Of a stretch of DNA of 23,400 nucleotides, positions 8,996 to 23,005 are shown in pieces. The stretch is from a virus: the IMG/VR virus record IMGVR_UViG_3300046535_001342, positions 1 through 23,400 of that record. One strand, given 5' to 3'. Within the stretch, counting starts at the first letter, position 1. The number at the start of each line of letters is the position of its first letter. The position numbers were made by a program, and so were the translations under genes. The notes beneath the pieces were generated by a model. That model worked only from the letters and a program-made list of their open reading frames with translations. It had not been told where the DNA came from and searched no databases.

Positions 8996-9026
8996 ACAGT
9001 ATGCACTGTTTTTAGTCTATCGTCAA
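8996..9026 (-). promoter_or_regulatory. Candidate late promoter
   Basis: On the minus strand TTGACG (9026-9021) and CATACT (9003-8998) are separated by 17 bp. The predicted start falls near 8991, exactly at the ATG of the small terminase, which would give a leaderless or nearly leaderless message. The inverted repeat ACAGT-ATGC-ACTGT (8996-9009) overlaps the -10 box. It would serve the whole minus-strand late operon. Match to consensus is moderate (5/6 and 4/6), so other starts remain possible. Confidence 0.5.
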
Positions 9027-9027
9027 T

Positions 9028-9042
9028 GTGACATATTGTCAC
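9028..9042. promoter_or_regulatory. Perfect palindrome upstream of late promoter
   Basis: GTGACA-TAT-TGTCAC is a perfect inverted repeat with 6-bp arms, one base upstream of the -35 box. This is the position expected for an activator site or for a repressor that blocks polymerase. The protein that binds it is not known. Confidence 0.55.
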
Positions 9043-9163
9043 AGGGATAGGGTGGGTTCAATTGATTGAAAATTGAAGGACCTATAATCTGGGATCATAT
9101 TTCAAGTGCGACCTGAGAAAGAAAGTGGGTGGGGAGGAGGGGGCTGAGAGGCCAAAGCCTACT
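9043..9163. other. Intergenic with G-rich tract
   Basis: No gene is supported. From 9115 to 9143 one strand is almost purely purine; within it lie G runs at 9127-9129, 9131-9134, 9136-9137 and 9139-9143. Four G runs in 17 bases could fold as a two-layer G-quadruplex. The tract stands out in AT-rich surroundings and directly precedes the 9-bp repeats. It may be part of an origin. Confidence 0.45.
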
Positions 9164-9271
9164 GAATTGATAGAGATTATAGGTTCTATAGAATTGATGA
9201 TTTATATATTGTCTATAGAATTGATAGAGTATGTAGAGTTGATATAGTATATAGAATTGATAGGGATTTAT
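9164..9271. repeat. Twelve degenerate 9-bp AT-rich repeats
   Basis: The sequence can be cut into twelve consecutive 9-base units, nearly all ending in ATA, with GAATTGATA as the clearest unit. Full GAATTGA cores begin at 9164, 9191, 9218 and 9254, with GAGTTGA at 9236; spacings 27, 27, 18 and 18 are all multiples of 9. Low GC content and tandem repeats next to iterons is the classic picture of a DNA-unwinding element. The period of 9 is also three codons, so an open frame on the minus strand shows a tripeptide pattern, which I consider a by-product. Confidence 0.7.
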
Positions 9272-9422
9272 ATTGAATGAATATTCAATCAGAATATATT
9301 GAATGAACATTCAACCAGGATTATATTGAATGAGTGTTCAGTCGATATTATATTGAATGGCCGTTCAATCAGAAGATATTGAATGAATATTCAATCAGAA
9401 TTCTATTGAATGAATATTCAAT
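9272..9422. repeat. Six 18-bp inverted-repeat iterons
   Basis: Six copies of ATTGAAT-N4-ATTCAAT begin at 9272, 9298, 9325, 9352, 9378 and 9405, so spacings are 26, 27, 27, 26 and 27 bp, about 2.5 helical turns. Centres are GAAT, GAAC, GAGT, GGCC, GAAT and GAAT. Left arms are identical in all; right arms vary slightly (ATTCAAC in copy 2, GTTCAGT in 3, GTTCAAT in 4). Regular spacing and dyad symmetry suggest a dimeric protein bound along the array, as at phage or plasmid origins or multi-operator control regions. A seventh copy lies at 13372-13389. Confidence 0.85.
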
Positions 9423-9466
9423 TAGATCATTGAGCTATGCGAAAAAGACATGATAGATATGATCAA

Positions 9467-9502
9467 TTGGCATTTTACATTTTTAAAAAAGGGGCCTAAT
9501 AT
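9467..9502 (+). promoter_or_regulatory. Phage-family promoter, copy 1
   Basis: TTGGCAT directly before TTTACA (9474-9479), 17-bp spacer, then TAATAT (9497-9502). It matches the other three members of the family. It starts a message for the small basic protein gene at 9555, with a start near 9509. It lies 45 bp to the right of the iterons. Confidence 0.8.
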
Positions 9503-9508
9503 ATTTAT

Positions 9509-9531
9509 ATTGATTGAATGAATCAATCAAT
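9509..9531 (+). promoter_or_regulatory. Palindrome at transcript start
   Basis: Arms ATTGATTGA and TCAATCAAT (9 bp) flank ATGAA. The repeat begins at the predicted start site, so it could be an operator on DNA or a 5' hairpin in RNA. Its centre includes GAATC (9520-9524), a GANTC site of the type methylated by the CcrM enzyme of alphaproteobacteria. A similar palindrome follows the promoter at 13427. Confidence 0.55.
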
Positions 9532-9554
9532 GAAAACAAATGAAAGATCAAATC

Positions 9555-9878
9555 ATGTCAAAGTCAAAGAAACTTTATAAGTTCAATCTTGAACTTTCTA
9601 AAACACTAAATCTTTCTCAATTCAACCCTTCTTGTAAGGCCTTTATTAAAGGTCTTTATAAGAAATCTAAAGAAGAAGATTTTCAAGGTTTCACTGGTGA
9701 AGATCTTTTGAAGTATTGTGTCAAAGAAGGTTTGTGGGAAACGAAACAAGAACCTTCAAAGTATCACACAACGTTCGCCTATTATGTGAAACTTTTGAAA
9801 GAAAAAGGTGGTTTTCAAGTTTGTGGCGAAAGTGTGAATAATGAAGTAGAATTTCTTGAAGAAGATATTGAAGAATAA
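9555..9878 (+). CDS. Small basic protein, possible winged helix
   Basis: A Lys-rich protein of 107 residues if it starts at 9555 (an ATG at 9540 would add five residues); neither start has a strong ribosome site. I do not recognise the family. The middle (GFTGEDLLKYCVKEGLWETKQEPSKYHTTFAYYVKLLKEKGGFQV) has the helix-helix-strand pattern of a winged-helix DNA-binding domain; the N-terminus is basic and the end is acidic (EVEFLEEDIEE). It is transcribed alone from a family promoter and closed by a strong terminator, next to six iterons. By position it is a good candidate for the protein that binds the iterons. This is an inference; it may equally be an unrelated early protein. Confidence 0.7.
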   Translation: MSKSKKLYKFNLELSKTLNLSQFNPSCKAFIKGLYKKSKEEDFQGFTGEDLLKYCVKEGLWETKQEPSKYHTTFAYYVKLLKEKGGFQVCGESVNNEVEFLEEDIEE

Positions 9879-9890
9879 ATAGAGGATCAA

Positions 9891-9921
9891 AGAGAGATCA
9901 CGCAAGTGGTCTCTCTTTTTT
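9891..9921 (+). terminator. Strong intrinsic terminator
   Basis: Arms AGAGAGATCAC (9891-9901) and GTGGTCTCTCT (9906-9916) form an 11-bp stem with a GCAA tetraloop, followed by TTTTTATTT. It begins 12 bases after the stop codon of the small basic protein gene. Confidence 0.95.
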
Positions 9922-10074
9922 ATTTATCATGATCCATTACATTATCCATGAACTAAGCTCTAAGTACTGCTCACTAAGAGAGTTCGCATCCATAACCTCT
10001 AATCAACTCTTTATACTAAGCCTGGTTGTATTCTTAAACTTCTGTGGCCTAGTATCTAGACTAAGGAGACGTAA
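9922..10074 (+). promoter_or_regulatory. Leader with weak candidate promoter
   Basis: No long gene is here. A candidate promoter has TTGTAT (10026-10031), an 18-bp spacer and TAGTAT (10050-10055), which could start the message for the 32-residue peptide. The match to consensus is weak. A TATACT at 10012 has no good -35 box. Confidence 0.3.
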
Positions 10075-10173
10075 ATGATCGATATGCTCATAACATTGGC
10101 CTATTCCTACTTCGACTTCGTGTTCTATTGCGTGATCGTGGCCATAATACCAATAATTCTATTCGATCTATAA
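10075..10173 (+). CDS. 32-residue membrane peptide
   Basis: A very short gene with good signals: GGAG six bases before the ATG at 10075 and a TAA stop at 10171. The peptide begins MIDMLITLAYSYFDF and continues with an uninterrupted hydrophobic stretch (VFYCVIVAIIPIILF) before the end FDL. It is long enough for one membrane span, with few charges (three Asp). It has its own terminator 21 bases after the stop, so it seems to be expressed on its own. Possible roles are host membrane interference, superinfection exclusion, or a regulator of lysis, but none is shown by the sequence. Confidence 0.65.
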   Translation: MIDMLITLAYSYFDFVFYCVIVAIIPIILFDL

Positions 10174-10194
10174 ACTAACCTAGACTCTAGGTTC

Positions 10195-10224
10195 AAGGGA
10201 CTTGCTTCGGCAGGTCCCTTTTTT
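10195..10224 (+). terminator. Strong UUCG-loop terminator
   Basis: Arms AAGGGACTTGC (10195-10205) and GCAGGTCCCTT (10210-10220) pair over 11 bp with one T-G wobble. The loop is TTCG closed by C-G, the very stable cUUCGg tetraloop, then a run of T. It ends the transcript of the 32-residue peptide. Confidence 0.95.
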
Positions 10225-10541
10225 ATTTCATCATCTTAGTACTGTCTCACAGTATTTCAATTAATATCAATGAGACTGTGCGCACAACAGTTCATCCTCG
10301 GTATTTTGCAAACGTCCCTAAGTGCTTGATTTTGTTATATAATTTTTTAGATATACTGTTATTACTGATATACTGATATTATAAATAATATTTATTAAAA
10401 GTAAAAAATGCCATTTTATATATATAATCTAACTTTTTGCCCACAGTGTGTGGTATTTTACAGCATAACAGAGGAAATAGGCTCCAGGAACGATGTTGTA
10501 ACATCCTGAGTATGCCCAAACCGCATAGCTCAATCCAAGTC
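10225..10541. other. AT-rich intergenic with small palindromes
   Basis: No protein gene is supported. Palindromes are TACTGT-CTC-ACAGTA (10240-10254), the perfect TGTGCGCACA (10277-10286), ATAAATA-A-TATTTAT (10381-10395), CCACA-GTG-TGTGG (10441-10453) and GATGTT-GT-AACATC (10492-10505). Between 10330 and 10440 the sequence is nearly all A and T and includes a repeated GATATACTG. A TATAAT at 10338-10343 and another at 10423-10428 lack good -35 boxes. It lies between two terminators, so transcription is not certain. It could hold a small structured RNA or operator sites. Confidence 0.45.
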
Positions 10542-10582
10542 AAAAAGAGAGGCTAGAGACCAGTCCATAATCTCTAACCTCT
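10542..10582 (-). terminator. Terminator of the primase operon
   Basis: On the minus strand AGAGGTTAGAGA and TCTCTAGCCTCT pair over 12 bp (one T-G) around an 11-base loop, followed by CTTTTT. It lies 6 bases after the primase stop codon and closes the leftward operon. Confidence 0.93.
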
Positions 10583-10587
10583 TAAAG

Positions 10588-13035
10588 TTACATTATATCT
10601 TTAGTAGCCAATTTAACCACCTTATTTTCCTCATCAGTCAGTGCTTCGGCCGCGTAACCCATGTCTTCAGGAGACCTCCACGGAATAACCCCACCAACCG
10701 CTTTCTCAATAGCAGCCCTGCCTTCAGCTATTGGCCAGAACGTATATGCTTTTCCTGGAATAATCTCTACACTACCATTAGATAATTTACTAAGTTTACT
10801 ATAGTGCATAGTTTGTCTAACCTTTTTATTTACTCTATTATCCATGGCAAAGTAATGCTCCATGAAATGCTCTGTAAGGAATTTGCGTTCTTCAGTCTGG
10901 AGCTTTGAAATGCCTTTTTTGTGTTCGTAGGCTTCAACAAACGTAGTTTGATGTAAACGGATAGCGATCCTTCCAAAGAGATGAGCATCTGGGAAATGTT
11001 TAGCAATATATTCTGGTAAGGCTCCATCCTCGTACCACTTGCGAACTTCTTCGATGAGCTCATTCGCTAAGTAGATCATTTCTTGCTTTGCTTCAGACAT
11101 CGGTGCTTCATTGAGGATGCTTGTAATATTGCGAGATATCAACCACTTTTGGAAGCCGGCACAAGCAGAGTCTTCAGAGAGTAGATAATATAGCTGATCA
11201 AAGTGAGCTTTGTTCTTATACCAATACATAGTCGCTTTCGCTATGACTAAGCGACGTTCGGTAGGGCGAAGATGTATTTTGCTCATATCGTTCGAAGTGA
11301 AGGCAATTCTATGGTACGAATCGATCGTCTTTTCCTTCACATGCTTCTCCTTAACAACGATCCTGGGACTAGTTATGAAATTAATCAGATAATTATAGTA
11401 AGCCTTATTCTTGGGTTCATAGTGATTAAGCTCGAGCTCATCCTGCGTAATAAGTAATGAATGATCGAGGGAACCAGACCACTTCTGAATGCCCTCATCG
11501 GCGATTTTAGATAGACGATTGCCCAAGACTCGAGTCATGACGTTAAGAATACTAGATTTGCCGGTACCTTCGGGACCAACGAATACAATAGCAGTCCCTG
11601 GCTTACGCGTGGGATGTTGGAAGATGTGCGCCATCCAGTCTAAGATCCAGTCTCGAAGTAACGGTTCCTCTAGGAGTTTAGATAGATGTTCTTCCATGAA
11701 ATTTACTAGGCGTAAGTCGTCCACATCAAAGGACTTAAAGTTGGGAAAACCAAGGAAAGTGTTTAGTCTATATTGGCCATCTTCGTAGACTTCAATATCC
11801 TTGGACGAGGGAACGAACGAGGTTCCAGTCAACAGCTTAGAGGTTGGATGATCGAAGTACCAATAACGTGCTAAGGGGATAGTTTTAGGCTTTTCTTCAT
11901 CAGTCCATACTTTGGCGGTGTCCATTGCACACAACGAACTAACGTCGTTGTAATAATTATAGCCGTAGTATGAACGATCGTCTCTCTTAGATATATCGAG
12001 TATAATAACCTTACCATCCTGGTTGAACTTACGATAGGTTTTGTCACGACGAGACATTTCTTCATCGAGTGTACCTACTTCTAAAATCTCCTCGGAATGG
12101 TATAGTTTGAAGCCGTGCAGCATTTCCTCGAGAGAATAAGGATTGCCGTTACCTTCCCTAGACCAAGGTTCTGCGAACTCGTCTGCTATGTCCCACTTAT
12201 CCGGAACTGGGTGAACTCCAATGAGATTATAGTCCAACATAAAAAAGCGAGTGTCGTCAAGGCCTTCGGAAAGCTTAGCTGCGATTTCACGCATACTCTT
12301 AAGGCCTGGAGTATCATTGTCTGGCCATAGATAAATAGAAGTTTGTCTATGCTTCAACGGAGACCAGTCTGTACACTTAATGTTGCTACTACCCCCAGAC
12401 CAAGTAGTGACAATATAATCCGGGAGCAGGTGCTTACCCGCGTCTGCGGTCTTTTCGCCTTCCACTATAAGGACGGGTTTCTTAGGAAAATGTTCGAGTT
12501 CATAAAGATTATAGAGTGGTCGGCCGGTTTGAGGAGGATCGACGATGTCCCAGTCGTTTTGTTCAATGCCTTCCTCTGATATATACTTTTTAGAAAAATA
12601 AGCTGGAGTCTGTTTCTTGCCGTTGTTATCTACGAATCGATGAACTATGAATGCTACTTCACCTTGAGCTGTATGATATTCATATAAAATATCATTGGCC
12701 TTGCGGTACTTTAAGGGTAGAGTTGAAATGTGCGAGGGATAGTTAACTAGTTTTTGTACCTTACCACCCTCTATGCCGCCAGGTCTGTGCTTAGATGGAA
12801 CAGTGATGTCGAACTGTGCTTTGATTGCCCGAACAATATCTTGCGTTGAACAATGCCTTGAATTACAATGAAAACCAAGTGAGCCTTCAGCATTCTCATA
12901 GATAACTAACGAAGGATGTTTGTCATTATGAGCTGGGCATAAACCCAGCCAACGGCCTTCGCCCGTTTGTTCTGCCTTTAATGCTGTGAATATTAATTGA
13001 TTGGTTGCATCTACTGGTTTTAACATTGCTGTCAC
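10588..13035 (-). CDS. Primase-helicase with TOPRIM and D5-like ATPase
   Basis: An 815-residue replication protein. The N-terminus is a zinc finger of the CHC2 type (Cys33, His36, Cys57, Cys62). TOPRIM features follow at VLIVEGEKTAD (188-198) and YLWPDNDTPG (235-244). The C-terminal half has an ATPase with Walker A VGPEGTGKSS (486-495), a Walker B-like SLLITQDEL (526-534), a sensor AFTSND (578-583) and the basic RPTERR (590-595), as in phage primase-helicases of the D5/DUF5906 type. It should prime and unwind the fork for the family A polymerase. It is second in a leftward operon and overlaps the previous gene by 4 bases. The length is normal for this group and no key motif is missing. Confidence 0.9.
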   Translation of the reverse strand: MTAMLKPVDATNQLIFTALKAEQTGEGRWLGLCPAHNDKHPSLVIYENAEGSLGFHCNSRHCSTQDIVRAIKAQFDITVPSKHRPGGIEGGKVQKLVNYPSHISTLPLKYRKANDILYEYHTAQGEVAFIVHRFVDNNGKKQTPAYFSKKYISEEGIEQNDWDIVDPPQTGRPLYNLYELEHFPKKPVLIVEGEKTADAGKHLLPDYIVTTWSGGSSNIKCTDWSPLKHRQTSIYLWPDNDTPGLKSMREIAAKLSEGLDDTRFFMLDYNLIGVHPVPDKWDIADEFAEPWSREGNGNPYSLEEMLHGFKLYHSEEILEVGTLDEEMSRRDKTYRKFNQDGKVIILDISKRDDRSYYGYNYYNDVSSLCAMDTAKVWTDEEKPKTIPLARYWYFDHPTSKLLTGTSFVPSSKDIEVYEDGQYRLNTFLGFPNFKSFDVDDLRLVNFMEEHLSKLLEEPLLRDWILDWMAHIFQHPTRKPGTAIVFVGPEGTGKSSILNVMTRVLGNRLSKIADEGIQKWSGSLDHSLLITQDELELNHYEPKNKAYYNYLINFITSPRIVVKEKHVKEKTIDSYHRIAFTSNDMSKIHLRPTERRLVIAKATMYWYKNKAHFDQLYYLLSEDSACAGFQKWLISRNITSILNEAPMSEAKQEMIYLANELIEEVRKWYEDGALPEYIAKHFPDAHLFGRIAIRLHQTTFVEAYEHKKGISKLQTEERKFLTEHFMEHYFAMDNRVNKKVRQTMHYSKLSKLSNGSVEIIPGKAYTFWPIAEGRAAIEKAVGGVIPWRSPEDMGYAAEALTDEENKVVKLATKDIM

Positions 13036-13247
13036 GACTTGCCCCTTGCTAATTCAGTGATCGGTACTTCAGACCGCTCTTTATCAAAGAACAAAGAGGG
13101 TATACAGGCTAGCGATATGGGTATACGCTTAGTTCTATTAGCAACAGAACCTAAGAAACCTATATCTGAGTGACTTCGATGCGGCCTAGGATCTATGTAC
13201 GACTCATCATAAGGATCTGGATAGTTTCTCCCGAATGTATTCTTCAT
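13032..13247 (-). CDS. Small protein before primase
   Basis: A 71-residue protein not recognised. It is rich in Arg, Pro and Ser (NYPDPYDESYIDPRPHRSHSDIGFLG...), with no clear helix or motif, and may be disordered. The start at 13247 has a strong AGGAGGGG five bases upstream, and the end overlaps the primase start by 4 bases. It is the first gene of the leftward operon, 29 bases after the promoter -10 box. A primase partner or host-takeover factor is possible. Confidence 0.65.
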   Translation of the reverse strand: MKNTFGRNYPDPYDESYIDPRPHRSHSDIGFLGSVANRTKRIPISLACIPSLFFDKERSEVPITELARGKS

Positions 13248-13275
13248 CTAGCCCCTCCTGCGGCGTTAATATTTT

Positions 13276-13304
13276 ATTATAGCACAACTAGACTTGCAAG
13301 AGAA
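13276..13304 (-). promoter_or_regulatory. Leftward primase-operon promoter
   Basis: On the minus strand a perfect TATAAT (13281-13276) preceded by TGC, an extended -10 element. The -35 region (about 13299-13304) is weak. It is 29 bases upstream of the start codon of the first gene. Confidence 0.6.
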
Positions 13305-13319
13305 GCGCTCATTTAGCGC
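13305..13319. promoter_or_regulatory. Inverted repeat beside leftward promoter
   Basis: GCGCT-CATTT-AGCGC, with 5-bp arms, sits at the upstream edge of the leftward promoter. This is a typical place for a repressor or activator site. No direct evidence for a binder. Confidence 0.45.
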
Positions 13320-13371
13320 ATGTGGTATGTCCAACATGCACACCTACCTTTACTCTAATGCCTACCTAATG

Positions 13372-13389
13372 ACTGAATATTCATTCAAT
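13372..13389 (-). repeat. Seventh iteron copy, 4 kb from the array
   Basis: ACTGAAT-ATTC-ATTCAAT reads on the minus strand as ATTGAAT-GAAT-ATTCAGT, one base off the main iterons (copies 1, 5 and 6). It lies between the divergent promoters at 13276 and 13427, 38 bp upstream of the second promoter. This links the array at 9272-9422 to control of both operons. Confidence 0.75.
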
Positions 13390-13426
13390 ACAAGCCACGC
13401 CTTTTTTGCATAGCAGATATGCGAAA

Positions 13427-13462
13427 TTAGCAGTTTACAAGGGTGTGAAAAGACGCTATTAT
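13427..13462 (+). promoter_or_regulatory. Phage-family promoter, copy 2
   Basis: TTAGCAG, TTTACA (13434-13439), 17-bp spacer with AAAAGA, then TATTAT (13457-13462). It drives the nucleotide-metabolism operon, with a predicted start near 13469. Confidence 0.8.
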
Positions 13463-13470
13463 TTTATATA

Positions 13471-13488
13471 TTCAATGAAATCATTGGA
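13471..13488 (+). promoter_or_regulatory. Palindrome at transcript start
   Basis: TTCAATGA-AA-TCATTGGA; the inner 6 bp (CAATGA/TCATTG) are perfect. It starts two bases after the predicted start site, as does the palindrome at 9509. It could be an operator or an RNA hairpin that protects the 5' end. Confidence 0.5.
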
Positions 13489-13520
13489 TACAACAAGATT
13501 AGATATAGGAAGGATAGACT

Positions 13521-14024
13521 ATGTACTACTATCAGTTCAGTGACAAAATGAATCAAGAGGCTTTGAACAAGCTTATGGCGCAAGCTCCTTCGCAGGCGGC
13601 TGCAATTCTCTTGGCTGTATGGGAAGTTGGTGGGACTGAAAAGAAGGTTTCCGAAGATCAGGTGATTGATCATATTGCGAGTGACCTTGCACGCTTCTCA
13701 CCCAGAGCTAAGGGTGTCGAAGTAATCCCTGGCTTTGTGGCCTACTACAGGGCCATGCTTGGAAAGTTGCCGGCTCATATTCTTGCACAGACCAAAGATA
13801 ATCTTGGTGGTAAGTCTCGTGGAGGTGGCCGTAAGGGCGCTGATACGATGGTTGATCCGATCACTGGTGAGACGATGGAAAACATCTTCAAGCGTGATCC
13901 TGTTAAGAATCCTGGATCGCGTAAGACCAGGAAACTGGTAACAGAAGAGTATCTGGAAGATAGCGAAGGCGACGAAGGCGAAGATGTCGATGCTTCGGAA
14001 GAGCCTGCAGAAGAACCCGAATAG
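13521..14024 (+). CDS. First operon protein with acidic tail
   Basis: A 167-residue protein I cannot assign. The N-terminal half is helical (QEALNKLMAQAPSQAAAILLAVWEVGG...EDQVIDHIASDLARF), the middle is basic and Gly-rich (GGKSRGGGRKGAD), and the last 25 residues are nearly all acidic (EDSEGDEGEDVDASEEPAEEPE). A long acidic tail is common on phage proteins that bind nucleic acid or compete for it. The start ATG at 13521 has AGGAAGG upstream and follows promoter copy 2. The stop codon lies in a hairpin stem. It is expected to be abundant as first gene in its operon. Confidence 0.65.
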   Translation: MYYYQFSDKMNQEALNKLMAQAPSQAAAILLAVWEVGGTEKKVSEDQVIDHIASDLARFSPRAKGVEVIPGFVAYYRAMLGKLPAHILAQTKDNLGGKSRGGGRKGADTMVDPITGETMENIFKRDPVKNPGSRKTRKLVTEEYLEDSEGDEGEDVDASEEPAEEPE

Positions 14025-14071
14025 ACTACTACCACGGTAGTCTATAGCAGGGGAATTGCCCCTTTTCCTGC
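14021..14071 (+). other. Two hairpins between genes, possible attenuator
   Basis: The first has ATAGACTAC (14021-14029) and GTAGTCTAT (14037-14045) with a 7-base loop, and the TAG stop codon of the upstream gene is in its left arm. The second has GGGG-AATTG-CCCC followed by TTTT, and an outer GCAGG/CCTGC pairing that could replace it. This may reduce transcription into the downstream genes, or protect the first gene's message. Confidence 0.5.
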
Positions 14072-14137
14072 CGTCCTGAGCATGACGAAAAACTGCTCAT
14101 TTATTGTATCTGTACATCTCTGTTAGGAGTTACAAGA

Positions 14138-14554
14138 ATGCCTAACCACTACGAAATGATCAAAGAATTTCATGAAAAGTTCGGTCTTGCCTATTTCGGC
14201 CCGCCCAAGAATCTAGATTTTGCAGTAAGTGAGTTTCGTACCCAATTCATGGATGAAGAGCTTGCTGAATACATATTTGCTACAACCATTAATGATTTAG
14301 AAAAGCAGCTCGATGCTTTAGTAGACTTAGTTTATGTAGCACTTGGAACTGCCTATATGCAGGGCTTCGATTTCAATGAGGCTTTTAGACGGGTGCATGA
14401 AGCGAATATGAAAAAGGTTCGAGCAGTGAGCGCAGATCATTCATTGAGGAATAATATCCTTGATGTAGTTAAGCCAGAAGGCTGGCAAGCACCAGACCTT
14501 AGTGATCTTATTAACGCAGTTAAATCTGTTAGTGGAGATGATAATGCTGAGTAG
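14138..14554 (+). CDS. MazG-like nucleotide pyrophosphohydrolase
   Basis: A 138-residue all-alpha protein similar to phage phosphoribosyl-ATP pyrophosphohydrolase-like or MazG-like enzymes. Characteristic parts are FHEKFGLAYFGPP (11-23), a metal-binding acid group FMDEELAEY (37-45; Glu40, Glu41 and Glu44) and the segment QLDALVDLVYVALGTAYMQGFDFNEAFRRVHEANMKKV (57-94), a strong family signature. Members remove pyrophosphate from nucleoside triphosphates; the substrate here is not known. Because the operon also has a dCMP-hydroxymethylase-like enzyme and dCMP deaminase, dCTP or dUTP are attractive substrates, which would give monophosphates for them. Start ATG at 14138 with AGGAG nine bases upstream. 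Confidence 0.8.
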   Translation: MPNHYEMIKEFHEKFGLAYFGPPKNLDFAVSEFRTQFMDEELAEYIFATTINDLEKQLDALVDLVYVALGTAYMQGFDFNEAFRRVHEANMKKVRAVSADHSLRNNILDVVKPEGWQAPDLSDLINAVKSVSGDDNAE

Positions 14555-14870
14555 AGAGCGGGCGGCAGAGATTCTTCGTGAAACTGCTGAACTAATCAAC
14601 GGTGAGCGGGCTAAGAACTATGGCGAGCCACAGCAGAGCTTTGAGAATATAGCGCGGCATTGGTCTATATTCCTAGGAATAGAGATAACTCCAGCGGATG
14701 TGGGGTTAATGATGATTTTAATGAAGGTATCACGCAATGGGCGGGATCGTTTTAAGCGGGATAATTTCGTGGATATATGTGGCTATGCTTCATTGATTGG
14801 TAGCGAAGGTATTAAGCCACCGCAGATGAAAGCAGCTTATGAAGAAAAGGAAGAAGAAGATGACATATAG
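14544..14870 (+). CDS. DUF6378 family protein
   Basis: A 108-residue protein from ATG 14544, which has GGAG six bases upstream and overlaps the previous gene by 11 bases; the open frame extends further upstream without a better start. The motifs are RAKNYGEPQQSFENIARHWSIFLG (about 21-44), ITPADVGLMMILMKVSRNGRD (46-66), and KRDNFVDICGYASLI (69-83). These are the pattern of the phage DUF6378 family, whose biochemical role is not known to me. The acidic C-terminus (YEEKEEEDDI) overlaps the start of the next gene. Always near nucleotide-metabolism genes in phages that I recall, so a role there is plausible. Confidence 0.75.
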   Translation: MLSRERAAEILRETAELINGERAKNYGEPQQSFENIARHWSIFLGIEITPADVGLMMILMKVSRNGRDRFKRDNFVDICGYASLIGSEGIKPPQMKAAYEEKEEEDDI

Positions 14871-15681
14871 TGCAGATACTGCCTGGTTGGCAGCAATTCA
14901 AAATGTGTGTTTAGGGGGTGAAGCGGTCGCACCCCAAGCTTCAACGGGGGCCAATGGTCGAGTATCGTTTGAACTTATAGCTCATACTATGGAATTTGAT
15001 ATGGGCTATCCGATCGTAACGTGTAAGCCTAATACATCCTGGATATACATGGCTGCAGAAGCTATATGGATTTTGAGTGGTGAGAACTCATTGTTCTATA
15101 GTCAAGAGATTCAACGGATCCAGGCGCCATACTCGGATGATGGTAAGAAATTGTCAGGCGCTTATGGGCCCAGTTTTCAGTCCCAACTGCCCTATATCCT
15201 TGATCTGTTTGCTCGAGACATTAACACTCGGCAGGCAGTGCTTACAATCTGGAAGCGGAGCCCTAAGCCCAGTAAAGATATTCCATGCACAGTAGCACTT
15301 CAGTGGCTTATTCGAAATAATAAACTTCACTGTATTGTAACAATGCGGTCTAGTGATGTGGGAATGGGTTTGCCTTATGACATGTTCAGCTTTGCATGTA
15401 TGAGTGCAGAAATAGCAAGTAAACTGGGTGTTGAACTTGGTATATGCTATATCACAGCTGGATCAAGGCATATCTATGACAATCAGATAGCCACACTTAA
15501 AGACCTGCCTATTACAGTAGCGGCACTGTCACCCAACTATGAGAAGTTGGTAACGTGGAAGTGGCCAGCATATAAAGAAGTATTAAGGACTATCTCTAAG
15601 TATACTTGGACTAATGATATTGAACGTGCTGATGCTCAACTCATGGCTAAAACACTTATTTGTGGAGGCGAACTTGACTAG
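14860..15681 (+). CDS. Thymidylate synthase-fold enzyme, dCMP hydroxymethylase-like
   Basis: I start it at ATG 14860 (273 residues), with AAGGA nine bases upstream and in overlap with the previous stop codon. The fold is thymidylate synthase: IPCTVALQWLIRNNKLHC (141-158) with the catalytic Cys143, the MRSSDV block (162-167), and GSRHIY (201-206). Three positions differ from true thymidylate synthase and agree with T4 dCMP hydroxymethylase: Thr144 after the Cys (His in thymidylate synthase), Asp174 in LPYD (Asn in LPFN), and Gly-Ser at 201-202 (Gly-Asp). The Asn-to-Asp exchange is known to shift specificity to dCMP. It therefore probably acts on dCMP, making hydroxymethyl- or methyl-dCMP. Many phage genes of this kind are labelled thymidylate synthase. 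Next gene overlaps its end. Confidence 0.85.
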   Translation: MTYSADTAWLAAIQNVCLGGEAVAPQASTGANGRVSFELIAHTMEFDMGYPIVTCKPNTSWIYMAAEAIWILSGENSLFYSQEIQRIQAPYSDDGKKLSGAYGPSFQSQLPYILDLFARDINTRQAVLTIWKRSPKPSKDIPCTVALQWLIRNNKLHCIVTMRSSDVGMGLPYDMFSFACMSAEIASKLGVELGICYITAGSRHIYDNQIATLKDLPITVAALSPNYEKLVTWKWPAYKEVLRTISKYTWTNDIERADAQLMAKTLICGGELD

Positions 15682-16054
15682 ACCATCTATAGATGAGACT
15701 ATGATGCAAATTGCCTTAACATTAGCTAAGCGTGGCACTTGCTTAAAAAAGAAAGTAGGGGCTGTTGCACTAGATAAAGACAATCGTCTTATATCCGGTG
15801 CTTATAATGGGGCGCCAAAGGGTTGGACACATTGTGACGAGATTACACCATGTCTAGCGTTCAGTGATCCAGGAATATCATGCAGTGCTTTGCACGCTGA
15901 ACAGAACTTATTGCTTCATTGTAATCCTAAGGACATAGCTACTGTATATGTTACAGAAGAACCTTGCCATAAGTGTCGAATGCTTTTGCATAATGTAGGA
16001 AATATTCGCATAGTGTATTTACAGGATGGCCAGATAACAGAGGACATAGATTAA
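15674..16054 (+). CDS. dCMP deaminase
   Basis: A 126-residue zinc enzyme that converts dCMP to dUMP. Zinc and catalytic residues are His74-Ala-Glu76 (HAEQN) and Cys98, Cys101 (PCHKC), with the nucleotide-binding YNGAPKG (44-50). The most likely start is TTG at 15674: GGAGG lies five bases before it, and the product then begins MTRPSIDETMMQIALTLAKRGTCLKK, as in other dCMP deaminases (MTRPSWDEYFM..A..A.R.TC). Upstream ATGs at 15614 and 15632 give an unrelated N-terminus, and the overlap with the previous gene is 8 bases. Together with its neighbour it decides whether dCMP is modified or turned into dUMP. Confidence 0.9.
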   Translation: MTRPSIDETMMQIALTLAKRGTCLKKKVGAVALDKDNRLISGAYNGAPKGWTHCDEITPCLAFSDPGISCSALHAEQNLLLHCNPKDIATVYVTEEPCHKCRMLLHNVGNIRIVYLQDGQITEDID

Positions 16055-17904
16055 TGGAATATGAACTTCCAACAGTCCATCGAGAAATGGCTGTCGACAG
16101 TGAAACTTTCGATCCCCATCTCACCGAGTCAGGGCCAGGTTTCGTATTCAATAAAGCCAAGGTTATAGGGATAAGCATATACACTGATACAGGATTCAAT
16201 GCTTATTATCCGCTTAGGCATAAAGAGGGCAATGTACCGGCGGGGCCTATCCTTGATTGGCTTGATGAGAAGCTCAATGATCCTATGATAACTAGCGTAT
16301 ATGCCAATGCTAGATACGATCTTGAAGCATTGCTATCACTTAGGCTGACTGTACAAAACTTCATTGCGGATATCCAGGTTATTGAAGCTTTGCTCGATGA
16401 AGAAAAGAAATCTTATTCATTGGCTAGTTTATCTAAAGACTATGGCCTACCACCTAAGACTCGAGATAAAATCGAGTCCATGCTTCCAAGGATCGGGCAT
16501 AAGCCTAACTGGTCCATGCTTTGGAAGCTGCCTGTCGATGTAGTTGGTGAATATGCAAAGTACGATGCTGAAGCAACGTATAAGATTTATCAATTACAAA
16601 AGCCAAAGATTGTCGCTGAAGAGCTGACCGAAGTGGTTGAACTCGAAGCAGCATTAGCACCAGTGCTTTTAAGCATGCGAATGAATGGTGTTCCCGTTGA
16701 TATTCCGCGAGCTGAAGAAGAGAATGCTCGATTGTTTAAAGAAGGCGAAGAGCTTCTAGAAACTATTAGAAGAGATTCGCCTAAGCTTAATCCGTTTAGT
16801 CCTTTGCAGTTGGGTGAATATATTCGTGAACTAGGATACTTTCCAGAGACTACAGAAAAAGGTAATGATTCTGTATCGAATGAATATCTATTGGCGTCTA
16901 ATGATGACAGATTAAAGATTATAGGTAAGTATCGACAACAAGAGAAGATACGTCGTGATTTCATTGAGGGGATGATTCTACAGTCATCATATAAAGGTCA
17001 CCTACACCCACAATGGTTCCAAACCCGAGGCTCTAGCTTCATGTCTGGTGACGATACCGGCGGAACACGTAGCGGTCGAATAGCGTGCGCTAATCCTAAT
17101 CTATCACAGATACCGAGTCGCCATCCAGTACTGGGTAAGCTAGTGCGCTCTCTATTTATCCCTAGTCCAGGTAATATGTGGTTCAAAGGTGATCTATCAC
17201 AACAAGAACCGCGCATATCACTACATTATGCATACCTGCTTAAACTAACAGGCGCCGAAGAAGCTCGTCAAGCTTATCTCGACGATCCTCATCTTGATTA
17301 TCATACGCTTACTAGAAACATGGTAAATAAAGTTAGTGTATTTCAGATTGATAGAAATCAAGCTAAGACAATTAATCTTGGTGTTGCATATGGCATGGGT
17401 ATACAAAAGCTAGCAAATGGCTTAGGCCTACCGCGTAATAAAGCACAGACTATTATTGATAATTATCATCGAGGTTTTCCATTTATGAAAGAGCTTCTAT
17501 ACAAAGCCCAGGGATATGCTGAGGCTAGAGGCTATGTAAAAACAGTACTCGGTAGACGTCGACACTTCGACATGTGGGAACCTCCATACTTTCAACGTGG
17601 CAAATTCCCTATTCGTGGTAAAGCAGCTGCTATTGCCGCTTACGGACCTGTTAAGCAGGCAAACACTTATAGAGCTATGAACTCTATTGTTCAAGGTTCT
17701 GCGGCTGAACAGATGAAGAAGATGCTAATTGAATTATACGCTGAGAAAATTCCAATCTATATAACGCTTTATGATGAACTTGGTGCACCGGTTGCAGACG
17801 AGGCAACAGCTAAGCGTATCAAGGAAATAGCTGAGAATGTAATACAGTTCGAAGTACCACAAGTAATGGAATACAAACTTCAGAAAACATGGGCAAAAGA
17901 ATGA
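16054..17904 (+). CDS. polA: DNA polymerase, family A
   Basis: A 616-residue replicative polymerase with a 3'-5' exonuclease and no 5' nuclease part. Exonuclease motifs: AVDSETF (Asp15, Glu17), VYANARYDLEA (Asn85, Asp89), YAKYD (Tyr167, Asp171). Polymerase motifs: A at FKGDLSQQEPRIS (Asp380, Glu385), B at RNQAKTINLGVAYGMG (434-449; Arg434, Lys438), C at LYDELG (572-577; Asp574, Glu575). All catalytic acids are present. Two positions are of interest: the residue matching Phe762 of E. coli Pol I is Leu442, and motif C has Tyr in place of the usual His. It starts on the last base of the dCMP deaminase stop codon (TAATGG arrangement). Motifs A to C fix the assignment. Confidence 0.96.
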   Translation: MEYELPTVHREMAVDSETFDPHLTESGPGFVFNKAKVIGISIYTDTGFNAYYPLRHKEGNVPAGPILDWLDEKLNDPMITSVYANARYDLEALLSLRLTVQNFIADIQVIEALLDEEKKSYSLASLSKDYGLPPKTRDKIESMLPRIGHKPNWSMLWKLPVDVVGEYAKYDAEATYKIYQLQKPKIVAEELTEVVELEAALAPVLLSMRMNGVPVDIPRAEEENARLFKEGEELLETIRRDSPKLNPFSPLQLGEYIRELGYFPETTEKGNDSVSNEYLLASNDDRLKIIGKYRQQEKIRRDFIEGMILQSSYKGHLHPQWFQTRGSSFMSGDDTGGTRSGRIACANPNLSQIPSRHPVLGKLVRSLFIPSPGNMWFKGDLSQQEPRISLHYAYLLKLTGAEEARQAYLDDPHLDYHTLTRNMVNKVSVFQIDRNQAKTINLGVAYGMGIQKLANGLGLPRNKAQTIIDNYHRGFPFMKELLYKAQGYAEARGYVKTVLGRRRHFDMWEPPYFQRGKFPIRGKAAAIAAYGPVKQANTYRAMNSIVQGSAAEQMKKMLIELYAEKIPIYITLYDELGAPVADEATAKRIKEIAENVIQFEVPQVMEYKLQKTWAKE

Positions 17905-17918
17905 CCGAGGAAGAAGAG

Positions 17919-18359
17919 ATGGGCTTTAACGAATATGATGCCATGGACAGATGGCGCACTTATTGCCAGACTCAAGGATTACATACTGTTCGAATAGAGA
18001 ATGTTGGTTGTTCTCTAGCGGATATTATGTTCGTTTGGAAGGGTGTTGTTGTCTTCCAAGAAGTAAAAATGAGGCGAGGCAATTTAATCTATATGCCTAT
18101 TTATCAATGGAGTAATATGGTTAGACTGCGCAGGTCTATGTACTCTTGGCAATTGTTATATGTTGTGTATAATAGTGGTGTCTTTGATATTTATACGATC
18201 GACCAAATAAAGATGGCCAATCCAGAATCTGCTGGCAAAGGTAAAATCAAGGCACATATTGGTATGCTAGTGCCAATCCTTACCATTACAAATATGGATG
18301 ACTTTGCATTGCAGTTCGTACCTTGGATAGCATCAAAAGCCTGGAAAAAGAAAACATAG
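17919..18359 (+). CDS. PD-(D/E)XK nuclease, possible resolvase
   Basis: A small nuclease-like protein of 146 residues. The core pattern is RIENVGCSLADIMFVWKGVVVFQEVKMRRG: an Asp (ADI), then strand, then E-x-K (QEVK), which is the PD-(D/E)XK arrangement also used by VRR-NUC and Holliday junction resolvases. The start is uncertain: 17919 has GAGGAAGAAGAG upstream; ATG at 17901 overlaps the polymerase stop as ATGA; ATG at 17889 also keeps the frame. The domain lies inside all three options. It is the last gene of the first plus-strand operon, and could process recombination or replication intermediates before packaging. Confidence 0.7.
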   Translation: MGFNEYDAMDRWRTYCQTQGLHTVRIENVGCSLADIMFVWKGVVVFQEVKMRRGNLIYMPIYQWSNMVRLRRSMYSWQLLYVVYNSGVFDIYTIDQIKMANPESAGKGKIKAHIGMLVPILTITNMDDFALQFVPWIASKAWKKKT

Positions 18360-18425
18360 CTATTTATTTAGCGTATAAGTATAGACACAGTAGATATGTC
18401 CATTCTGCATACGTGGGTTGCGATA

Positions 18426-18461
18426 TTGGCGCTTTACAAGTCGTCAAAAAGATGTTAATAT
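18426..18461 (+). promoter_or_regulatory. Phage-family promoter, copy 3
   Basis: TTGGCGC, TTTACA (18433-18438), 17-bp spacer with AAAAAGA, TAATAT (18456-18461). Predicted start near 18468. No terminator separates it from the operon upstream, so it adds to read-through. Confidence 0.85.
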
Positions 18462-18490
18462 ATTATAGTTGACCTTAGGAGAAATATCAC

Positions 18491-18709
18491 ATGGTTAAAC
18501 ACATGAAAGACTTGAAGTTTACGGATGAATTTCAAGAGAAGATAGCTCAATCTATGGCTAAGCATATTAGGCCAGCTATAGTTAAAGTAGCGGAAGAGCT
18601 TGATATGTGTGAAGCTTGTACACATGCGTTAGTTATGAGTATACTTGAGGAAATCTTCGATCAAACAGAGAAAGCATCAAAAGAACATGAAAACGCCATT
18701 CGACATTGA
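18491..18709 (+). CDS. Small helical protein, operon leader
   Basis: A 72-residue helical, Lys/Glu-rich protein, not recognised. A CEACTHALVMSILEEIFDQ segment contains two Cys (CEAC). The start ATG at 18491 has AGGAG nine bases upstream and lies 30 bases after promoter copy 3. Its last 23 bases overlap the next gene. Function is unknown. Confidence 0.65.
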   Translation: MVKHMKDLKFTDEFQEKIAQSMAKHIRPAIVKVAEELDMCEACTHALVMSILEEIFDQTEKASKEHENAIRH

Positions 18710-19250
18710 ATCCTTAGAAAAGGATGCCGAAGAACTTACTGCTATACCTAGAGAAGATAGGCTCAAGAGTCTAGCTGCTTTGGCTATGGAGCAGTATAAT
18801 ATGGAGGTTGAAATCTCCCAGATTGAGGAACACGTTGCTGATCTTAAGCGACAACGCGATGAAATCTCAGAGATTAAGATTCCTGAGATTATGAATGAAT
18901 TGGCTATTGACCAGTTCAGAATGAAGAACGGTGCAAAAGTAGTGCTAGCCCCTTACTATGGTGGCAAGATTACCGATCGCAGTGCTTATACGTGGCTTGA
19001 GGATAACGGATACGAAGACATCATTAAAGGTGAAATCGATATTCCATTTCCAAAAGGCTTTGATAGAAATAAGTTAAAGGCTATTATGGACGTAGCTCAC
19101 GGTGTTGGACTCGGAGGTGAATGCAAAGAGGAAGTACATAGCTCTACACTTAGAGCCTGGATTAAGGAGATGATTACAACAGGTCAAGAGTTTCCTCGTG
19201 ACTTGTTCAATGCTTATACGGGATATCGTACAAAGATAACGATTAAGTAG
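18687..19250 (+). CDS. Gp157-like coiled-coil protein
   Basis: A 187-residue protein. I use ATG 18687, as the longer frame from 18645 lies within the previous gene. A coiled coil (about 27-65: LAALAMEQYNMEVEISQIEEHVADLKRQRDEISEIKIPEIMNEL) is followed by MKNGAKVVLAPYYGGKITDRSAYTWLEDNGY (73-103) and a C-terminal AWIKEMITTGQEFPRDLFNAYTGYRTKITI. The order coiled coil - IP.IM.E...D.F...NG.KV - WL...G is like phage Gp157-family proteins, which in some phages relate to recombination. The match is loose. It lies between the small leader gene and the candidate single-stranded DNA-binding protein. Confidence 0.55.
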   Translation: MKTPFDIESLEKDAEELTAIPREDRLKSLAALAMEQYNMEVEISQIEEHVADLKRQRDEISEIKIPEIMNELAIDQFRMKNGAKVVLAPYYGGKITDRSAYTWLEDNGYEDIIKGEIDIPFPKGFDRNKLKAIMDVAHGVGLGGECKEEVHSSTLRAWIKEMITTGQEFPRDLFNAYTGYRTKITIK

Positions 19251-19260
19251 GAGACTATCA

Positions 19261-20088
19261 ATGAATAAAGAAATAACAATGCAACAGCCGGGTGCTTTGG
19301 CTGAAGTGCCGATGAGCATCGAAGAGTTAGAAGCTGATGCCTTACTAGGCGGTAAGGTTGGGCTACTGGATATTAGTGTACCATACTTGTACATTCTCCA
19401 GAGCAATAGTCCGCAGGTTAATGTGGATCATCCAAAGTATATTGAAGGTGCAGCTGCTGGTATGCTGTACTTAACTGGTCTTGAGAAAGTGTATGATGGA
19501 CGAAACAAAGGACTTCTTATTGTCCCATGCTTCTATGAGCGACTTGTCACTGAGTGGGTTCCTCGTGATACTGGCGGTGGTCTTGTTGCTTCTCATGATC
19601 CTGAAGCTGAGATCCTAAAGACTGCAAGGCCTGATGAAAAAGGCCGGCTTTGTTTCGCAAATGGTCACCAGCTTATGGAGACTGCATATCACTATGCTCT
19701 AGTCCAGGATCCAGATTCTGGAGTCTGGTATCAAGCGATCGCGCCCTTCAAGTCAACTGCTTTGAAAGCATCGCGTCGTATGAATTCGACGATCAATACA
19801 ACGATGATTCCTACTACTACCAAAAAGGCCCCACGCTTTTTGTATAAATGGCGCATGAATACTGTCAAAGAACAAAAGGATGCCTATGTTTGGTCTTCTC
19901 CGAAACTATCACAATTGGAGATGGTTTCAGCAGATATCTATGCTGCAGCCAAGTCTTATGCAATTGTTTCAGCTAAGGGACTGCTACGTCGTATAGCTGT
20001 TGAAGCTGAGCAGGAGGCTGATCCTTCAGGTGAGACTCAGATTGCTCGCCAGTCTATGGGCGAAGTGGACGACAACGTCCCGTTCTAG
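19261..20088 (+). CDS. Candidate single-stranded DNA-binding protein
   Basis: A 275-residue protein with no recognised domain. Its C-terminus ends GEVDDNVPF, the acidic tail with terminal Pro-Phe that bacterial SSB proteins end with (DDDIPF) and use to bind partners. The body has mixed strands and helices, a basic stretch FKSTALKASRRMNSTI (about 162-177) and a TTTKKAPRFLYKWRM segment, suited to contact DNA. It is next to a SNF2 helicase and Gp157-like gene and downstream of the polymerase, and the window has no other SSB candidate. Start ATG at 19261 with AGGAG seven bases upstream. Function is inferred from tail and context; homology is not shown. Confidence 0.55.
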   Translation: MNKEITMQQPGALAEVPMSIEELEADALLGGKVGLLDISVPYLYILQSNSPQVNVDHPKYIEGAAAGMLYLTGLEKVYDGRNKGLLIVPCFYERLVTEWVPRDTGGGLVASHDPEAEILKTARPDEKGRLCFANGHQLMETAYHYALVQDPDSGVWYQAIAPFKSTALKASRRMNSTINTTMIPTTTKKAPRFLYKWRMNTVKEQKDAYVWSSPKLSQLEMVSADIYAAAKSYAIVSAKGLLRRIAVEAEQEADPSGETQIARQSMGEVDDNVPF

Positions 20089-20098
20089 TGCTTACGAA

Positions 20099-20122
20099 GG
20101 TGGCAGGTTAAGTCCTGCTACC
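20099..20122 (+). other. Intercistronic hairpin without T run
   Basis: GGTGGCAGG and CCTGCTACC pair over 9 bp (one G-T) with loop TTAAGT. GGGTAAAC follows, so it is not a terminator. It sits between the candidate SSB gene and the helicase gene and may stabilise the upstream message or be a processing site. Confidence 0.6.
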
Positions 20123-20143
20123 GGGTAAACATTAGGGTGAAGT

Positions 20144-21553
20144 ATGACAGTTCCCTATATACATCAAACGGATGTATTAAATGTCTCTATAAACAAAGTG
20201 TATTGGGCCTTGTTTCTAGAGCCTGGTGTAGGTAAGACATTCATATCGATCCGTACTTCAGAGAACTGGTTCATTAATAGATCAGTCAATTGCGTTATTG
20301 TAGTTTGTCCTAAGAGTATGATACGCACTTGGGGAAGCTCTGAGATACCAAAGCATAGCACTATACCATATCTTGTATTCGAATGGGGTGCAACCTTTAC
20401 TTCTAAGCATCAGAATGATTTAATAGCTAAAGTACGCGATAAAGATAAGCTGTTATATATTATTGTTAATCATGATGCTTTAACTACAGATAGGTTTAGA
20501 AAAATAATTAATTATATAGTTAAGCATCGTAGTTATGGCTTAATCTACGATGAAAGCACTGCTATCAAGAATCATAAAGCTGTTCGTACCATTGCAGCAC
20601 TACGTCTGGCAGACTCGGCAAAGTTCCGTAGAATCTTGAGTGGAACGCCTATTGTGCAGTCTCCGTTAGATATATACTCACAAGTCGAGTTTTTAAACAA
20701 ACAGATCCTAGGCTTTAGAAGCTATTATTCATTTAAGACACGATACGCTGAAATCCGCCGTATATCCTTTGGCAATAGAGCTTTCGACAAGATCGTAGGC
20801 TTTAGAGACCTGGATGATCTCAAGCATAAGCTAGACAAGTTTTCGTCCTTTAAGCGATTGGATGAATGCGTAGACTTGCCCGATCAAGTGTCTAAGCAAA
20901 TATTGATTGAGTTGACCCCCACCCAGATCCATGCTTATAGAGAATTAGTTGAAAAAGCAGTTCTGTATATTGAAGAGCATGAAATAACTGCTGTTAATGC
21001 TTTATCCTTGATTGTACGATTGCATCAGATTGTAATCGGGCAGCTTAAAGCGCCAGATGGAACATATATTTCTATACAGAATAACCGATTAACGGCTCTT
21101 AAAGAGGTTGTTGAAGAAACTCCTCATAAGATGTTAATCTGGTCAACCTATGTTAACACAACTAAAGACATAGAGAAGACACTACTAACCGATGCCATTG
21201 TAATCTATTCTGAGTATTCCCAGAATAAGCGGCAGGAACTCATTGATAAATGGCGCGTCGGTCCAGCCAAGTGTCTAGTGCTTAATCCAGCGTCAGCAGG
21301 GCATGGTCTTACTTTGAATGAAGCTAAAACGGCCGTGTTTTATTCTAATTCCTATAATTTAGAATACCGTCTCCAGGCTTTGCGAAGAAACTATCGCATT
21401 GGACAGACAGAACCAACACTGGTTATAGACTTTATTACGCCTGGGACTGTTGAAGAAAAGATTCTAAAGGCCTTGACTGATAAAGAAGAGCTGGCTAAGC
21501 GGTTGACTACTAAATCAGCAATCCTGGACTTTATAAAAGATGCCAATCTGTAA
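20144..21553 (+). CDS. SNF2-type DNA helicase
   Basis: A 469-residue superfamily 2 helicase. Motif I FLEPGVGKT (24-32), motif Ia IVVCPKSMIRTW (52-63), motif II DEST (136-139), motif III LSGTPI (165-170), motif V NPASAGHGLTL (381-391) and motif VI QALRRNYRIGQT (411-422), the last as in SNF2 proteins (Q...R.HRIGQ). It probably remodels or unwinds DNA in recombination or replication. Start ATG at 20144 has AGGGTGA upstream, after a hairpin gap of 55 bases. The DEST in motif II in place of DE.H is normal for this phage group. It ends inside the next gene. Confidence 0.9.
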   Translation: MTVPYIHQTDVLNVSINKVYWALFLEPGVGKTFISIRTSENWFINRSVNCVIVVCPKSMIRTWGSSEIPKHSTIPYLVFEWGATFTSKHQNDLIAKVRDKDKLLYIIVNHDALTTDRFRKIINYIVKHRSYGLIYDESTAIKNHKAVRTIAALRLADSAKFRRILSGTPIVQSPLDIYSQVEFLNKQILGFRSYYSFKTRYAEIRRISFGNRAFDKIVGFRDLDDLKHKLDKFSSFKRLDECVDLPDQVSKQILIELTPTQIHAYRELVEKAVLYIEEHEITAVNALSLIVRLHQIVIGQLKAPDGTYISIQNNRLTALKEVVEETPHKMLIWSTYVNTTKDIEKTLLTDAIVIYSEYSQNKRQELIDKWRVGPAKCLVLNPASAGHGLTLNEAKTAVFYSNSYNLEYRLQALRRNYRIGQTEPTLVIDFITPGTVEEKILKALTDKEELAKRLTTKSAILDFIKDANL

Positions 21554-21998
21554 GCAATGTTTAAAGACCAAGCCTCAAGTAGAGATGGGCTCTTTAAGGC
21601 GGTGCAAGGCTTGTGCTAAACTTGACTATGAAATTCGGAAACTCAAACTTCGTAGGAAGACGGTAGCCTATAAGACTAGCTTAATAGATACAGCAGTAAA
21701 GATTCATCGGAAATATAAGGATCGTATACGACATAAACTATTTCCAGGCGATAAAGCAGCTATATCTGCGATCTATAGGCAGTCCATATACCTACGACGC
21801 ATGGGTATGAATGTTAATGTAGATCACATTATACCCATAAAAGGTAATCGAATTTGCGGACTCCATGTTAGCTGGAACCTACGTATCCTGACTATGATGG
21901 AGAATTCAGAGAAAGGCCACCGTATAAACTTGGCCGAAGAATCTGAACGTCTCTTCGACGAGTTGGTGCTTAAAGGCCTTGCTACTCGTGCGAAATAG
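21540..21998 (+). CDS. HNH endonuclease
   Basis: A 152-residue protein. Two CxxC pairs (Cys4-Cys7, Cys22-Cys25) form a probable zinc ribbon, followed by a basic helical part, then the HNH core: VDHIIPI (94-100; Asp95, His96), CGLHVSWNLRIL (106-117; His109, Asn113) and ENSEKGHRI (121-129). The core matches HNH nucleases found in phages, including those resembling endonuclease VII. It overlaps the helicase gene by 14 bases and has no visible ribosome site. It may be a DNA-processing enzyme of the phage or a free-standing homing nuclease. Confidence 0.85.
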   Translation: MPICKQCLKTKPQVEMGSLRRCKACAKLDYEIRKLKLRRKTVAYKTSLIDTAVKIHRKYKDRIRHKLFPGDKAAISAIYRQSIYLRRMGMNVNVDHIIPIKGNRICGLHVSWNLRILTMMENSEKGHRINLAEESERLFDELVLKGLATRAK

Positions 21999-22017
21999 GC
22001 ATACCATAGTTACGAAT

Positions 22018-22053
22018 TTGGCAGTTTACAAGCGTCGCTAAAGATGCTATAAT
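22018..22053 (+). promoter_or_regulatory. Phage-family promoter, copy 4
   Basis: TTGGCAG, TTTACA (22025-22030), 17-bp spacer with TAAAGATGC, TATAAT (22048-22053), preceded by TGC. It is the best match of the four to sigma-70 consensus. Predicted start near 22060. Confidence 0.9.
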
Positions 22054-22057
22054 ATCT

Positions 22058-22079
22058 ATGTAAGCTAAGGAGGCTACAT
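22058..22079 (+). other. Hairpin that exposes ribosome site
   Basis: ATGTA-a-GC and GC-TACAT pair with a bulged A; the 7-base loop TAAGGAG contains the ribosome binding site of the next gene. The stem is short and its effect on translation is uncertain. Confidence 0.35.
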
Positions 22080-22080
22080 C

Positions 22081-22608: not shown

Positions 22609-22837
22609 ACCCTGGGAAAATAAATCAGAAGAGATGAAGAAAGCTTTGGTAGGAATGTTTCCTGAAGCTAAGAAAAATATAGATCGTGATTGTTGTTCAA
22701 GTTGCGGTCGCCCAATTAAGTTGGATGATTTTAGAGATACCATTTCTATTAAAGAGTATGGTATCTCAGGTCTTTGCATGCTTTGTCAAGACTTGATCTG
22801 GGGAAACAAGAATGACGAACAAGATACCCGATCCTGA
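22601..22837 (+). CDS. Small zinc-ribbon protein
   Basis: A 78-residue protein with CCSSCGRP (about 31-38) and LCMLCQDL (58-65), i.e. two CxxC pairs about 20 residues apart that can bind one zinc ion. The N-terminus is charged and helical (EEMKKALVGMFPEAKKNI). It overlaps both neighbours. It could bind DNA, RNA or a host protein; no more can be said. Confidence 0.7.
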   Translation: MTKPWENKSEEMKKALVGMFPEAKKNIDRDCCSSCGRPIKLDDFRDTISIKEYGISGLCMLCQDLIWGNKNDEQDTRS

Positions 22838-23000: not shown

Positions 23001-23005
23001 ATGAG

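Follow-up and report, generated by a model that had tools for sequence, protein, structure and literature searches.

Which reaction is catalysed by the enzyme encoded at positions 14860-15681 of this viral DNA, a member of the thymidylate synthase (TS) superfamily? The window, meaning the whole stretch of 23,400 nucleotides that was analysed, is a 23.4-kb viral fragment (IMGVR_UViG_3300046535_001342) with portal and capsid genes of SU10 type; its early region lies on the + strand. Megablast of its positions 9000-23400 against phages gave 0 matches. Judged by its residues and its neighbours, the enzyme is very probably a folate-dependent dCMP 5-hydroxymethylase.

Family and fold of the enzyme

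The reading frame starts with ATG at 14860, just after the GGAAGAAGAAG stretch. Its product matches PF00303 in Pfam (E 1.2e-23, 84 bits, cut-off 24.3) and is assigned by PHROGs to PHROG 160, 'thymidylate synthase', while it stays under the cut-off for all NCBIfam TS equivalog models (e.g. 65.5 vs 327 bits). As the top fold match of the AlphaFold2 model (pLDDT 93.7), MilA, the CMP 5-hydroxymethylase of mildiomycin synthesis (5b6d, 5jnh), was found with Z 24.9 and rmsd 3.1 over 253 residues; TS structures were also matched. In a profile search MilA scored 126 bits and the TSs listed at most 84 bits. Among solved relatives, MilA is thus the closest by profile and fold. The two have in common the cytosine Asp, the Asp-x-x-Cys-Thr motif, Glu, His and Tyr, but MilA differs by Ala176, Lys133 and an extra helical domain, with Ser164 and Arg124 in the window enzyme. 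In MilA, Ala and Lys at the Ser167 and Arg126 positions go with a preference for ribose (PMC5175136). This Ala/Lys pair of MilA and BcmA was not found here, and the Ser164 and Arg124 present instead predict a deoxyribose substrate, unlike that of MilA.

Table 1. Features of the enzyme gene and its neighbours, in window coordinates
Feature	Position	Strand	Basis
All-alpha nucleotide pyrophosphohydrolase of the MazG/PRA-PH family, possible dCTP pyrophosphatase	14138..14554	+	PF01503 E 1.8e-13; DR2231, 3nl9 relatives
DUF6378 protein (PF19905), ATG 14544, in the thymidylate-kinase-like slot of relatives	14544..14870	+	family match; neighbourhood comparison
TS-superfamily enzyme, 273 aa, predicted dCMP 5-hydroxymethylase	14860..15681	+	PF00303, residue table, AlphaFold2 model
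Asp140 codon (= T4 Asp145), Cys-3 hydroxymethylation signature	15277..15279	+	alignment; role from PMC6400193
Codons of nucleophile Cys143 and Thr144 (= E. coli Cys146, His147)	15286..15291	+	alignment
Asp166 codon (= E. coli Asp169, folate-binding)	15355..15357	+	residue table; Asn in RB69/AfhB hydroxylase
Asp174 codon (= E. coli TS Asn177, T4 Asp179), pyrimidine specificity	15379..15381	+	alignment; function from PMC8670742, PMC6400193
dCMP deaminase, TTG start 15674 after GGAGG, overlaps enzyme gene	15674..16054	+	PF00383 E 5.2e-18
Family-A DNA polymerase (3'-5' exonuclease included), last gene of conserved cassette	16054..17904	+	PF00476 E 4.8e-49

Active-site residues and the competing reactions

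The enzyme was aligned with T4 gp42, E. coli ThyA, SPO1 gp29, RB69 ORF048c and the DLP4 enzyme, the last serving as a stand-in for the XP12 lineage. The catalytic Cys143, the folate-activating Glu67, the folate residue Asp166 and Tyr102 (the Tyr94 position) are all present. Asp174, Thr144, Asp140, Asp166, Ser164, His204 and Tyr206 are the same in T4 gp42, while ThyA has Asn, His and Leu at the first three. The enzyme carries Asp at E. coli position 177 and, at position 147, a residue other than His, here the common choice Thr, as in T4, RB69 and MilA; these two positions were the top residues tied to cytosine modification in a screen of phage contigs (PMC8670742). The original prediction had listed Thr144, Asp174 and Gly201-Ser202 as dCMP residues of T4 type. 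For Thr144 and Asp174 this stands. The Gly-Ser pair, which aligns with Gly204-Asp205 of E. coli, needs a correction: E. coli TS has the Gly as well, and Ser202 is found both in the RB69 hydroxylase and in the dUMP hydroxymethylase of SPO1. Neither residue is therefore dCMP-specific, and the pair is weak evidence.

How well are these residues kept among relatives? Asp174, Thr144, Cys143, Asp140, Ser202, His204 and Tyr206 are invariant in 28 aligned sequences, a set partly conditioned in that one of its two retrieval patterns included the Asp; the relatives are 37-58% identical. Relatives fetched by tblastn without the Asp pattern (MW202510, PW916, AXL3, MW202621, HTVC119P, ATCCB, Planchet and AB434P2) have the Asp in all aligned cases. 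A preference for dCMP over dUMP, as originally predicted, is well supported by Asp174 and Thr144, the neighbourhood and the closest characterised relatives.

Then what would be done to dCMP? The Asp three residues before the nucleophile is present, as Asp140-Ile-Pro-Cys143. For T4 gp42, mutants gave the roles of Asp145, Asp179 and Tyr96, with D145N inactive, and Asp145 reportedly activates the water that is used in hydroxymethylation (PMC6400193). The C-terminal tail of TS type is absent, since the end LICGGELD fails to align with the PVAI tail of ThyA. Asp140, Asp166 and the missing tail support hydroxymethylation as the predicted reaction. T4 gp42 (1b5e, 6a9b), for which the same reaction is predicted, is alike in Asp179, Asp145, the Thr after Cys148, Asp171 and the lack of a TS tail. 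It differs in that local BLAST similarity covers only 35 aa, and the window enzyme has Gly100 for Ser94 and Gln at Trp80.

Some points count against a hydroxymethylase. A Ser or Thr two residues before Tyr96, as in T4, was looked for, and the window has Gly100-Ala101-Tyr102 instead. However, the T4 S94A mutant retains about 25% activity (PMC6400193), and the SPO1 dUMP hydroxymethylase likewise lacks the Ser (Ala); because of the latter, Ser-x-Tyr is treated as a detail of T4 type, not as defining for hydroxymethylation. The SPO1 enzyme (gp29) is further alike in its Cys-3 Asp, Ser at 205 and loss of Trp80, whose equivalent in the window enzyme is Gln88, but it differs by Asn at 177 and 147, in keeping with its uracil substrate. 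Another point against is the replacement of E. coli Arg21 by Gln26 in the window lineage. Gln26 (codon 14935-14937) is also found in the aligned lineage members L001 and L018, and it adjoins a six-residue insertion specific to the lineage.

Could another reaction account for the same residues? One would be 5-hydroxylation of dCMP with flavin and oxygen and without folate (5-hydroxy-dCMP synthase), as in RB69 ORF048c/AfhB, which is flavin-dependent by its entry title. This enzyme shares the TS fold, dCMP as substrate and the equivalents of Asp177 and Thr147; the structures 9iqc and 9iqu, nearly identical to RB69 ORF048c, are fold matches of low rmsd at rank 5 (Z 23.0) and rank 13 (Z 22.4), and Mosigvirus is reported to have 5-hodCMP synthases of the TS family (PMC13390438). 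Thus the residues named in the original prediction cannot by themselves single out hydroxymethylation of T4 type, and that part of the prediction is carried by Asp140, Asp166 and the missing tail. Three positions speak against a hydroxylase: those of the folate Asp169, of Tyr209 and of Cys-3 are taken by Asn, Phe and Glu in the RB69 enzyme, but by Asp166, Tyr206 and Asp140 in the window enzyme. Moreover, MilA outscores the hydroxylase by sequence and fold, and neither the window nor the relative L001 has a recognisable sugar-modifying gene. We consider a 5-hydroxylase improbable.

A dCMP methylase (5-methyl-dCMP synthase) of the XP12-lineage type is slightly less probable again. According to literature cited in PMC8670742, Asp at 177 alone converts TS to a dCMP methylase, and DLP4 of that lineage has Asp177 and both deaminase and pyrophosphohydrolase neighbours. 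But at positions 143, 147 and 80 the DLP4 residues are Asn, Pro and the retained Trp, against Asp, Thr and Gln in the window enzyme, which also lacks the TS tail. The DLP4 operon also has a DHFR gene, as expected if dihydrofolate is made, while none of the window proteins submitted to Pfam matched DHFR. Taken by itself, the DLP4 operon (L182, 14817-17477), with pyrophosphohydrolase, Asp177 TS-like enzyme, deaminase and DHFR, looks like a dCMP methylase pathway; the genetic basis of this pathway was reported as unknown by the AXL1 authors (PMC9206674). Finally, a drifted but ordinary dUMP TS, for which the family-level names and the adjoining dCMP deaminase, a maker of dUMP, would speak, is very improbable given the residues at 177, 147 and 143 (Asp, Thr and Asp), the absent tail and the sub-threshold equivalog scores.

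The conserved cassette and a lineage with DUF6378 in the kinase slot

The genes of Table 1 form a compact operon in the order pyrophosphohydrolase, DUF6378, enzyme, dCMP deaminase and family-A polymerase. The first had been likened to T4 gp56: its membership in the MazG/PRA-PH family is confirmed (PF01503), with 3nl9 (a putative NTP pyrophosphohydrolase) and DR2231 as nearest solved relatives, but BLASTP gave no similarity to gp56. A dCTPase role is possible, and plausible by position. The best solved matches of the deaminase are deoxycytidylate deaminases, including 1vq2. For the polymerase, the best NCBIfam match is DpoZ (aminoadenine-incorporating), with 270 bits against a cut-off of 500, and a purZ-like gene was not recognised within the window. 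In cytosine-modified contigs PF00303 co-occurs with PF01503, PF00383 and PF14437 (PMC8670742), and Pfam finds all four in the window. Among the window proteins scanned, neither Pfam nor PHROGs found a glycosyltransferase or carbamoyltransferase; T4, which adds glucosyltransferases, differs in this respect.

Is this neighbourhood a general one? More than 560 relatives on viral contigs were confirmed, and the best 80 were used. In these 80 loci plus the window, all of Asp type, a pyrophosphatase gene is found in 64/81, a deaminase in 64/81, a thymidylate-kinase-like gene in 62/81 and a methyltransferase in 42/81. For 80 loci retrieved with E. coli ThyA as query, which come from other phage types so that the contrast is partly one of lineage, the numbers are 2, 5, 0 and 0, respectively. 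In 60 of the 62 cases, no more than 150 nt separate the end of the kinase gene from the enzyme gene. A methyltransferase of Methyltransf_23 type lies beside the hydroxymethylase gene in 42 of 74 cassettes of the wider clade (e.g. L007 3975-4871, L009 3650-4474, L010 2796-3545); the modified nucleotide might be its substrate, or it may have no part in the pathway. Cassettes of this type have been described before, and the gene at 14860-15681 is the predicted dCMP 5-hydroxymethylase within it.

These genes suggest a scenario for the pathway. The MazG-like pyrophosphatase would probably supply dCMP and deplete dCTP. Cys143 would attack C6 of dCMP, with Asp174 recognising and protonating the cytosine, and methylene-tetrahydrofolate would give the one-carbon unit; a water placed by Asp140 would then add to the exocyclic methylene, and 5-hydroxymethyl-dCMP and THF would be released. 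The analysis itself shows the residues, the predicted fold, the operon and the conserved neighbourhood; we infer this substrate and this product. The deaminase would turn leftover dCMP into dUMP, and 5hmC would replace part or all of the C as the phage polymerase copies the genome. We likewise infer modified virion DNA; cytosine in the DNA of this virus is probably modified.

There is a further question, which enzyme would phosphorylate hmdCMP? In a quick tree the window enzyme falls into a clade of seven loci with SH-aLRT 100. None of the seven has the kinase or the methyltransferase (0/7 each); DUF6378 occupies the kinase slot in six, and in the seventh a DUF6378 match falls below the threshold. 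The oddity of this lineage is thus DUF6378 where relatives have a nucleotide kinase. The Pfam thymidylate-kinase family was not found in the window, L001, L018 or L020. Because the kinase-like gene of MW202510 escaped this model too, phmmer searches with the relatives' own kinases were added, which found none, and a P-loop motif scan of L001 gave nothing resembling a nucleotide kinase. The failure to find an hmdCMP kinase either in the window or in the closest relative, L001 (a 42.9-kb and possibly partial contig), counts against a hydroxymethylase. Given these negative searches, hmdCMP would have to be phosphorylated either by a host kinase, which would then suffice, or by an unrecognised phage protein.

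What might DUF6378 do? Its model is poor (pLDDT 61.6), with no significant PDB matches. A relationship to MazG was tried and rejected, as profile-profile comparison with the pyrophosphatase, with shallow profiles, gave 0.2% probability. The name 'phosphofructokinase' that PHROGs gives to the family looks unfounded for a helical protein of about 100 aa. The family occurs in 1510 phage records in all, and since it is common in mycobacteriophages it is not specific to a cytosine pathway. One scenario is that the lineage makes hydroxymethylated-cytosine DNA without a phage nucleotide kinase and that the small all-helical DUF6378 protein takes part, be it as another nucleotide pyrophosphohydrolase or by helping the host kinase, as its partner, to accept 5hm-dCMP, to give two examples. 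We hold this scenario to be unlikely, and a pathway role of DUF6378 is only hypothetical.

Restriction resistance and probable, overlooked cytosine modification

A relative with a phenotype is AXL3, a Stenotrophomonas phage, whose gp28 is 37% identical to the window enzyme with the same residues. The 'pyrimidine HMase' of AXL3 (gp28), PW916 and MW202510 is 37-41% identical, with identical key residues, and the gene order pyrophosphatase, HMase, deaminase is as in the window, with PolA next in MW202510. The difference is that in these phages a thymidylate-kinase-like gene immediately precedes the HMase gene and a methyltransferase is present, where the window lineage has DUF6378 and no methyltransferase. 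AXL3 DNA was cut by 2 of 37 restriction enzymes, both with A/T-only sites, while all 35 with G/C in their sites were resisted; gp28 was annotated as thymidylate synthase, and AXL3 also has a separate ThyX (PMC7504290). A dCMP hydroxymethylase would explain this resistance.

Why would such a pathway be overlooked? Pfam, PHROGs and annotators call such genes 'thymidylate synthase', and phages with modified cytosine are thereby hidden. Modified cytosine in phage DNA is a known means of escaping bacterial DNA-cutting enzymes. In the references compared, residues 177, 147, 143, 169, 205 and 209 (E. coli numbering) separate hydroxymethylase, hydroxylase, methylase and true TS, and from this set follows a testable reason why AXL3 DNA resists restriction, for which no explanation had been given. 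The base chemistry of phages matters for cloning, sequencing, CRISPR editing and the prediction of host defence.
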